Part shown: positions 13,105-29,235 of the stretch, in pieces
How the letters are laid out: each line of letters opens with the position of its first letter
Numbering within the stretch: the stretch's first letter is position 1
NCBI GenBank assembly: GCA_937125475.1
Contig: CAKZLL010000415.1
Location: forward strand, 1 to 37,517
Origin: an uncultured Saprospiraceae bacterium
GTDB lineage: Bacteria > Bacteroidota > Bacteroidia > Chitinophagales > Saprospiraceae
DNA: 37,517 bases
Reading direction: 5' to 3'
The notes under the pieces: model-generated
Seen by the model: only the letters and a program-made list of their open reading frames with translations
What the model was told of the DNA's origin: nothing
The model's database searches: none
Made by a program: the position numbers and the translations under genes

Positions 13105-13161
13105 AAATTGCTATCATTATTAAATAGAGAATTATTTTCTATTTAATAATGATAGCAATTT
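13105..13161. terminator. 24-bp perfect inverted repeat after guaB
   Basis: Arms 13105-13128 and 13138-13161 are perfectly complementary over 24 bp (core GCTATCATTATTAAATAGA), with a 9-nt loop. It begins 21 nt after the guaB stop and ends 21 nt before the next start codon. Only a mild T-rich tract follows (TCTAATTTTA), so termination may be partial. The structure could equally protect the guaB mRNA 3' end. Confidence 0.7.
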
Positions 13162-13770: not shown

Positions 13771-13779
13771 AAAAATAAA

Positions 13780-13911
13780 GATTCATTGATAATTTTGCCT
13801 TTTATTTAGCCCAATATGGGTTTGTTTCATTGTTCTGACTGCTTGAAAAACAACAGGGTAAGCCACCACTGGACTAAGAAATATTCATTCTAGCAAAATT
13901 GTCAAAGAACC
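13780..13911 (+). mobile_element. MITE-like element, copy A (132 bp)
   Basis: The element begins GATTCATTGATAATTTTGCC and ends with sequence whose complement reads GGTTCTTTGACAATTTTGC, so its ends are inverted repeats. Inside, CCAATATGGG...ACAACAGGG and GTAAGCCACCACTGG continue the near-complete hairpin. It is flanked on both sides by AAAATAAA (13772-13779 and 13912-13919), a perfect 8-bp direct repeat. A second copy in opposite orientation lies at 29037-29167. No coding capacity. It sits just after the DedA-like gene stop, which falls at 13768-13770, 9 nt before the element. Confidence 0.85.
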
Positions 13912-13951
13912 AAAATAAACTATATTTATTGTCTTGCTTTTTAAAACAAAA

Positions 13952-14063
13952 AATGGGAACACTGATGACGCTGCTTTCAGACGCAGATTAGCACAGATAA
14001 ATACAATCAAATCAGCGTTTATCTGCGAATTGTGAAGTGATCAGTATCATCTGTGTTCCCATT
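13952..14063. repeat. 112-bp imperfect palindromic element (GGGAACACTGATGACG type)
   Basis: AATGGGAACAC (13952-13962) is matched by GTGTTCCCATT (14053-14063), and pairing continues inward (GATGA...TCATC, CTG...CAG). The interior has a second, shifted pairing, ACAGATAAA with TTTATCTGC. The whole forms a long imperfect hairpin. From memory, GGGAACAC-GATGACGCTG palindromes are dispersed in Bacteroidota genomes, but no second copy is in this window and no clear direct repeats flank it. It lies 30 nt beyond the stop of the minus-strand barrel gene and could act as its terminator. Confidence 0.65.
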
Positions 14064-17684: not shown

Positions 17685-19676
17685 CTAATGAACTTGTATT
17701 TTTAAAACAGCTCTTTGATTATTAGACGTTATTTTTATAAAATAAATTCCTACTGGCTGAGCCAAATTGAGTTGAAGTAACTGACCTTCTTCGGTATATT
17801 GAGTTTGAAGTACTTGACCAATCATATCTGTGATTTGAATTGAAATATCTTGATAGGTTTGTCCCATATCAATTTGTAATTGCCCTGTTGTTGGATTTGG
17901 AAAAGCTTTTATCTGATGACTTAGAATTTTAGAGGTATTAACTTGTATAATTTGATAACAATCCGAAGTGTCTGAACAACCATCCACTGTAACAATAACG
18001 GCATAATTACCACTTATAGTTGAAGTATAAGCCTGATTAGTAGCACCAGCGATTGGCATATTTCCATTATTACAATCAATCCATTGGTAGTTAGCATCAG
18101 TTTGAGTAGCTGTTAATGTATTCGTATTTTGAGTAACAGCTAAATTAGGCAATGGTGTTAGTGATAAATTAATAGAAATCAAGCTATCACACCCTAAATG
18201 ATTGGTGAGGGTATCGGTATAATTACCCGAAGTTGTCCAAACATGATTGCCACTTGGCGAAGTATAATCACCACAGCTTTGAGCTGAAATGCTAGATTGA
18301 CTGTTATTTATCGTTAAATTGATTGAAACAATACTATCACAGCCTAAATGATTAGTAATTGTATCAGTATAGTTGCCCGAAGTTGTCCAAACATAATTGC
18401 CGCTCGGCGAAGTATAATCATCACAACTTTGAGCAGAAATACTTGATTGACTGCTATTTATCATTAAATTAATAATAATAATGCTATCACAACCTAAAAA
18501 ATTAGTGAGGGTATCGGTATAATTACCCGAAGTTGACCAAATATAATTGCCACTTGGCGACGTATAACTATTACATTCTTGAACCGTGATAGGATTCGCA
18601 TTGCTACTATTAATCGTTAAATTGATAGTAATAATACTATCACAACCTACAAAAGTCATCAATGTATCAGTATAATTTCCTGAAGTTGACCAAGTATGAT
18701 TGCCACTTGGCGATGTATAACTATTACATTCTACAGGATTAATAACTGTATTATTAGAATGACTACCGAGCATCAGATTAATCGTGATAAAAGTATCACA
18801 AGCTGCTCCAATCCCTGGAAGTGTGTCTTGATAAGTTCCAGAAGTAGTCAAAACTGTTCCACTCGGAGTTGTATAATTACCACCATTACACAATCCTGGA
18901 TTTAAGGTTAAAAAAGTATTTTTGGAATAAGCCACAAAATTAGACGCTGTTCCTGTGAGTGCAAGACCATTAAAAACACCGTTTGCATTACCTTTACTAT
19001 CTAACAAAGAAGTAATTGATGTATTATTTCCACCTGCTACACCTTGATCACATTCGTAGGCATACATTAATCCGCTGGCATTTAAATCAATACTACAAGC
19101 ATTATATAATGCTGTGGCTTCTGTACTGGTCAAGCTTTTTGACCAAAGCGCAGCATCATCTAATTGCCCATTCAAATAAAATTGAGTGTTATTGAAAGGT
19201 AAACTTCCTAAATAAAGCGTTTCAGTTGTACTGGTAATATAACCTGTTGCATTATTGTTTGTACCAACAGAAGTACCATTGTGATAAAGTGTTAGAGTTG
19301 AGCCATTATAAGTTAGTACAAAATGATTCCAAGTGTTTGGAACTAAGTTATTATAAAGAATATCATAATTTGTTCCTGTACTATTTCGAAATCTTGCCTC
19401 TACTTGTGTAGCAGATAAGTGAAGGATATAAAAATCAGCGTTAGAGTTATTTCTAAAGCCTGCCATCCCATCAAAGTTAGGAAAACTAGGAGAGGTATTC
19501 GTTGGATAAACCCAAAAAGAAAGGGATAAATCTTTATTCGCAATTGGAGCGGAAGCATTAGGAACAGTAACATAATCGCCGTTTCCGTCAAACTTTAAAG
19601 CATTTTGTGCTGTAAGCGAAGTAGTGGAAAAGGCTATTAAGGTGATTAAAATTGTGAAAAGGTAGTTTTTTCTCAT
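17685..19676 (-). CDS. Large secreted T9SS protein with LamG domain and tandem repeats
   Basis: A 663-residue cell-surface or secreted protein. It has a signal peptide (about 1-24, ending 'TSLTAQN'), then a LamG/concanavalin-A-like lectin domain (about 25-195: 'LKFDGNGDYVTVPNA', 'FSFWVYPTN'-type strands, 'NHFVLTYNGSTLTLYHNG', 'LNGQLDDAALWSKSLTSTEATALYN'). Next come five Cys-containing repeats of about 50 residues (roughly 260-510) with the signature 'YTSPSGN-x-x-W-(S/T)-TSGNYTDT...GCDSI-x-x-INL'. A short Ig-like segment follows and then a type A T9SS sorting domain ('AFPNPTTGQLQIDM', 'DMIGQVLQTQYTEEG', 'PVGIYFIKITS'). Likely role: glycan binding or adhesion; no enzyme motif is visible. The first repeat has diverged ('NYTTPSGTVLTTSGTYQDT'). 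Confidence 0.88.
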   Translation of the reverse strand: MRKNYLFTILITLIAFSTTSLTAQNALKFDGNGDYVTVPNASAPIANKDLSLSFWVYPTNTSPSFPNFDGMAGFRNNSNADFYILHLSATQVEARFRNSTGTNYDILYNNLVPNTWNHFVLTYNGSTLTLYHNGTSVGTNNNATGYITSTTETLYLGSLPFNNTQFYLNGQLDDAALWSKSLTSTEATALYNACSIDLNASGLMYAYECDQGVAGGNNTSITSLLDSKGNANGVFNGLALTGTASNFVAYSKNTFLTLNPGLCNGGNYTTPSGTVLTTSGTYQDTLPGIGAACDTFITINLMLGSHSNNTVINPVECNSYTSPSGNHTWSTSGNYTDTLMTFVGCDSIITINLTINSSNANPITVQECNSYTSPSGNYIWSTSGNYTDTLTNFLGCDSIIIINLMINSSQSSISAQSCDDYTSPSGNYVWTTSGNYTDTITNHLGCDSIVSINLTINNSQSSISAQSCGDYTSPSGNHVWTTSGNYTDTLTNHLGCDSLISINLSLTPLPNLAVTQNTNTLTATQTDANYQWIDCNNGNMPIAGATNQAYTSTISGNYAVIVTVDGCSDTSDCYQIIQVNTSKILSHQIKAFPNPTTGQLQIDMGQTYQDISIQITDMIGQVLQTQYTEEGQLLQLNLAQPVGIYFIKITSNNQRAVLKIQVH
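18150..18900 (-). repeat. Intragenic tandem repeats, about 150 bp each, five units
   Basis: Four similar units and one divergent unit encode the 'YTSPSGN...TSGNYTDT...GCDSI' repeats. The two units nearest the 3' end are the most alike, suggesting recent duplication. Period in protein is 50-51 residues with one Cys before 'YTSPSG' and one in 'GCDSI', a plausible disulfide per unit. Confidence 0.85.
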
Positions 19677-29028: not shown

Positions 29029-29036
29029 AAAATATT

Positions 29037-29167
29037 GGTTCATTAACAATTTTTGCCAGAGTGAATATTTTCTTAATCCAGCGGTGGCTTGCCCCGTTGT
29101 TTTTCAAAGAGTTAGAACAATGGGGCAAGCCCACGTTGGACTAAAAGGCAAAAATTGTCAATGACCC
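29037..29167 (-). mobile_element. MITE-like element, copy B (131 bp)
   Basis: Reverse complement of copy A's family. Ends: GGTTCATTAACAATTTTTGCC on the left and, as complement of the right end, GGGTCATTGACAATTTTTGCC (19 of 21 equal). The interior pairs too (GTGGCTTGCCCCGTTGTT with AACAATGGGGCAAGCCCAC), so the whole element can fold into one long hairpin. AAAATATT flanks it on both sides (29029-29036 and 29168-29175), a perfect 8-bp direct repeat that differs from copy A's. It has no open frame and ends 68 nt before the subtilase gene. Confidence 0.88.
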
Positions 29168-29235
29168 AAAATATTCTCTCTCATTATTTAATTACTATAT
29201 TTTTTACCTAATTTTTTTTTAAAATCCACGAACAA

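Follow-up and report, generated by a model that had tools for sequence, protein, structure and literature searches.

The window (the whole stretch analysed, 37,517 nt from an uncultured Saprospiraceae bacterium) carries two copies of a MITE, A and B, each between 8-bp target-site duplications (Table 1). Copy A lies 9 bp behind the stop codon of a gene for a VTT-domain (DedA-like) protein, between convergent genes, and none of the open reading frames of at least 80 aa overlaps it; copy B is 68 bp upstream of a subtilase gene. The limits that the first-pass annotation had drawn for copy A were exact: 132 bp, bracketed by AAAATAAA repeats that are perfect duplicates of each other. The proposal that A and B inserted separately is supported, since their duplications differ and the copies share only ~80% identity. 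The same annotation had described the ends as beginning with GG. This is correct for the right end of copy A (GGTTCTTTGACAATTTTGC), whose first 17 bases are those of the ends of a full-length ISL3 element (L092, see below), and for the family consensus, but not for the left end of copy A, which begins with GA (GATTCATTGATAATTTTGCC) and has decayed from the family end GGTTCATTGACAATTTTTGCC.

Table 1. Coordinates of the two MITE copies in the window and of the two full-length ISL3 elements with matching ends
Feature	Position	Strand	Details
Left 8-bp target-site duplication, copy A	13772..13779	no strand	AAAATAAA
MITE copy A	13780..13911	+	132 bp; ~16% diverged from family consensus
Left terminal inverted repeat, copy A	13780..13799	+	GATTCATTGATAATTTTGCC, decayed from GGTTCATTGACAATTTTTGCC
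Right terminal inverted repeat, copy A	13893..13911	-	GGTTCTTTGACAATTTTGC, read inwards
Right 8-bp duplication, copy A	13912..13919	no strand	AAAATAAA
Left 8-bp duplication, copy B	29029..29036	no strand	AAAATATT
MITE copy B	29037..29167	-	131 bp; 3.8% diverged from consensus; strong hairpin, -65.2 kcal/mol
Right 8-bp duplication, copy B	29168..29175	no strand	AAAATATT
ISL3 element, Saprospiraceae MAG OFTM40	L092:4485-5763		1279 bp; both ends GGTTCTTTGACAATTTTTGCAAA; flanks 7/8 equal
ISL3 element, Persicitalea MAG	L158:149-1407		1259 bp; ends GGTACTCTGACAATTTTTGTGGT and GGTTCTTTGACAATTTTTGTGGT; perfect GAACATTT duplication

To describe the family, we aligned 40 copies. The consensus is 131 bp long and forms a near-perfect hairpin, with 21-bp terminal inverted repeats (GGTTCATTGACAATTTTTGCC) that are conserved among the copies (94% of cells paired in helix 1) and an inner palindrome centred on GGGCTTGCCCCATTGTT / AACAACGGGGCAAGCC. 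Folded as RNA it reaches -66.3 to -70.7 kcal/mol, depending on the strand, with 43 pairs counted. The earlier description of the element as a near-complete inverted repeat thus suits the consensus and copy B, which has retained its hairpin (z -10.3; Table 1), but no longer suits copy A, which is eroded and has lost most of the structure (-29.7 kcal/mol, z -2.1). Among the 40 aligned copies, copy A had diverged furthest; others lay within 2-4% of the consensus, and some pairs were 99% identical. Copy A is old and copy B is young, and the range from near-consensus to 16% divergence indicates that the family was active over a span of time. The same genome also holds shorter siblings, of 57 and 92-95 bp, which have the same ends and 8-bp duplications as the 131-bp MITE.

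The abundance of the family was assessed in the assembly of its own genome (5.76 Mb in 559 contigs, 92% complete). With the 132-bp sequence as query there were at least 41 matches (40 of the 221 candidates were scored). A 32-bp interior core had 82 matches with up to three mismatches, against none for a backward control; copy A itself escapes this count because of its divergence. The end motif GGTTCWTTGAYAATTTT occurred 282 times with at most one mismatch (control, 0) and 357 times with at most two (control, 19). Many further copies are therefore present, about 80 to 180 by our estimate, in which the core count misses old copies and the end-motif count takes in sibling elements and half copies. 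Where an end had no partner in this genome, it belonged to a truncated copy or to a copy cut off at the edge of a contig, or was an isolated end-like sequence; such ends were ruled out as those of long elements.

For 71 copies in ~343 kb of sampled DNA from the same genome, the flanking octamers were identical in 29 and matched at seven of eight positions in 18 more; i.e. 47 of the 71 had at least 7/8 equal flanking bases, where shuffled flanks gave an expectation of 1.7. The duplicated octamers had a G+C content of 6.6%, compared with 33% in the sampled genome. Such a pattern is what transposition with an 8-bp staggered cut leaves behind. Together with the copy number, the conserved terminal inverted repeats and the lack of coding capacity, these copy-specific duplications bear out the identification of the element as a MITE.

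Although ~79% of the sampled DNA lies in open reading frames, 65 of the 71 copies were found between them. Twenty-nine copies had a stop codon no more than 37 bp away, against 18.6 expected under random intergenic placement (P 5e-5, with the 37-bp limit set after the distances were seen and with crude open reading frames as gene calls); the same comparison gave no excess near start codons. A preference for AT-rich 3' targets, selection against harm or use as a terminator would each explain the excess at stops. We also counted pair-keeping changes on both arms of the hairpin and found 8 pairs, against 3.8 in shuffles (4 of 500 shuffles); as the shuffles leave the relatedness among copies in place, the support for selection on structure is weak. 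It is conceivable, though we think it rather unlikely, that the MITE was co-opted after insertion as a bidirectional transcription terminator or a 3'-end stabiliser, which would be compatible with its origin as a MITE. Such a role would suit a strong hairpin that carries a T-rich duplication with it and settles behind stop codons, and the great stability of the consensus hairpin, the excess at stops but not at starts, and the paired changes all point in this direction. Conversely, the excess may reflect the AT-rich 3' target preference combined with selection against insertion elsewhere, and the near loss of the hairpin in copy A argues that the structure is not strongly maintained there.

Whatever the later use of the copies, their origin as a MITE leads to the question of which transposase moved them. 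We searched the loci collected by then for pairs of the ends 400-6000 bp apart with at least 6/8 equal flanking bases. Only two long elements resulted, both full-length ISL3 elements with intact transposases (Table 1). The OFTM40 transposase has 395 aa and matches DDE_Tnp_ISL3 (PF01610) at 1.8e-54, with an ISL3 zinc ribbon in addition; that of Persicitalea has 406 aa and is likewise an ISL3 transposase (PF01610 at 7e-51), its element having GGTTCTTTGACAATTTTTG at one end and GGTACTCTGACAATTTTTG at the other. As the two proteins are only 35% identical, the end sequence has been retained across a deep divergence. Besides its full ISL3 element, OFTM40 holds MITEs with the same ends (L080 and L104), and a further genome, G019, holds ISL3 fragments with the end GGCTCTGTGACAATTTT.

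Both elements share with the window MITE the ends GGTTCTTTGACAATTTTTG, beginning with GG, and an 8-bp target duplication (equal at 8/8 positions in one and 7/8 in the other), but they are ~1.3 kb long and carry a transposase gene, whereas the MITE is 131-132 bp and non-coding, and the interiors are unrelated. The interior of the MITE, a long imperfect palindrome, has no coding capacity and shows no recognisable descent from any known ISL3 element, so that the ends are the sole link. The ISL3 affiliation, which the first-pass annotation had offered as a guess, now appears well supported by these comparisons. That annotation had also named three findings that would speak against its reading, namely no other copies in the genome, no flanking direct repeats, and no transposase-bearing element with matching ends; we looked for all three and encountered none.

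Copy A thus very probably represents an old insertion of a 131-bp MITE that has the terminal inverted repeats of an ISL3-family insertion sequence. In the mechanism that we propose, an ISL3 DDE transposase supplied in trans would recognise the GGTTCWTTGACAATTTTTGC ends and cut out or copy the MITE, which would then insert at an AT-rich 8-bp target that is duplicated on repair. We infer that a transposase of this type probably moved the copies in the present genome.

Duplications of 8 bp are common to several DDE families. The MITE could accordingly belong to another such family (e.g. IS1595, ISAs1, IS66 or IS6) and resemble ISL3 at its ends by chance, a reading that would also sit well with the lack of an intact ISL3 partner in its own assembly. 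However, both full-length elements found between such ends carry ISL3 transposases, at least 17 end bases match, and between these ends we encountered no transposase of any other family. We regard this alternative as already largely refuted, and as very improbable.

The partner of the ISL3-type MITE was sought in its own assembly with PF01610 and with the OFTM40 transposase. Neither search found an intact ISL3 element in this assembly, which is 92% complete and fragmented at the MITE repeats. The single ISL3 (PF01610) gene, at C101, is interrupted by a stop and fragmented, and lacks ends like those of the MITE. In many cases a contig of this genome breaks off within a MITE copy, so that a partner present in several copies could have dropped out during assembly. 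Presumably either the genome no longer encodes the donor transposase or the assembly lacks it. Contigs that end inside a copy or within ~100 bp of one of its ends include L191, L193, L208-L212, L216, L218 and L225. When the OFTM40 transposase was searched across the class at E 1e-40, none of 395 genomes gave a match, which shows little as the search had no positive control; a family-wide search with PF01610 returned few ISL3 genes, and in none of them did the ends match closely.

To explore the distribution of the family, we considered the interior and the ends separately. The interior was not found in any of the 60 relatives searched and is confined to its own genome among the 61 genomes sampled; the plasmid and phage collections likewise held no relative of the MITE consensus. 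By contrast, the end motif was present in 13 of the 40 relatives scanned, and GGTTCTTTGACAATTTTTG occurred in at least 108 stretches of public genomes, mostly from Saprospiraceae, Aureispira and other Bacteroidota. When all loci were pooled with those of the own genome, at least 7/8 equal flanks were seen in 84 of the 160 candidate pairs of ends, against ~3 expected. Outside the own genome such pairs give MITEs of varied length with unrelated interiors. These siblings (111, 122, 131, 142, 153, 163, 195 and 222 bp, from Saprospiraceae and other Bacteroidota) have the same ends and 8-bp duplications as the window MITE but differ from it in the sequence and length of the interior, and the end GGTTCWTTGACAATTTTTGC thus recurs on many unrelated MITEs across Saprospiraceae and other Bacteroidota.

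Two of these cases can be described individually. A genome of another genus, G015, has a 111-bp MITE family with ends GGTTCTCTGACAATTTTTG and 8-bp duplications (loci L045, L046 and L047), one copy of which is 156 bp long with an extra inverted repeat inside. The sister species G001 (L062, L060 and L061) has its own, different interior (GCCACGAATGCACGAATAAGG..., 122 bp in L062) between the same ends as in the window MITE. Behind its orthologue of the gene upstream of copy A there was no MITE, and the intergenic sequence was too different to be aligned and revealed no clean empty site.

A repeated functional RNA or binding site of the REP, ERIC or BOX kind, with incidental flanking repeats, would also be non-coding, intergenic, hairpin-forming and high in copy number, but this reading is refuted by the copy-specific 8-bp duplications (7 or 8 of 8 in two thirds of the copies), is further opposed by the recurrence of the same ends on unrelated interiors in other genomes and by the absence of any Rfam family at gathering score, and has a negligible probability.

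An ISL3-type MITE is not without precedent. Microcystis aeruginosa has a 187-nt MITE with ISL3 ends and 8-nt direct repeats (PMC11448079), which resembles the window MITE in being non-autonomous, in its ISL3-like ends, 8-nt repeats and stem-loop, and in its dozens of mostly intergenic copies. Its ends are GGCTCTTCG (9 nt) rather than GGTTCWTTGACAATTTTTGC, and the copies counted there were identical and tied to resident ISL3 genes (PMC11448079), whereas those described here differ in age, from young to old, and no intact partner came to light. We found no report of such a MITE for Saprospiraceae in the open literature, which is not proof of absence. ISL3-type MITEs were therefore already known, and it is well supported that the high-copy Saprospiraceae family is an addition.

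With this assignment, the end motif shared by many unrelated Bacteroidota MITEs is tied to one transposase family, ISL3, and the copies themselves are seen to break metagenome assemblies. A more speculative proposal, which we consider unlikely, is that one conserved ISL3 end serves a radiation of unrelated Saprospiraceae MITEs and that the amplified family in this genome acts under selection as a portable 3'-end hairpin or bidirectional terminator, having settled behind stop codons and outlived its transposase. If the hairpins did end transcription, a transposon would be rewiring 3' ends genome-wide.

Three other repeats were observed in the window. A second imperfect inverted repeat, unrelated to the MITE, lies 40 bp from copy A at 13952-14063 (22-nt arms, 86% complementary); five further sites in the genome match it in part, the sister species has weak matches, and it is another small dispersed repeat. 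Directly behind the stop codon of an IMP dehydrogenase gene there is a 28-nt AT-rich, near-perfect palindrome (13105-13161; 96%, 1-nt loop), perhaps a terminator. Finally, four copies of a 150-nt repeat (18158-18760) lie inside a gene for a secreted-type protein (17685-19676, minus strand).
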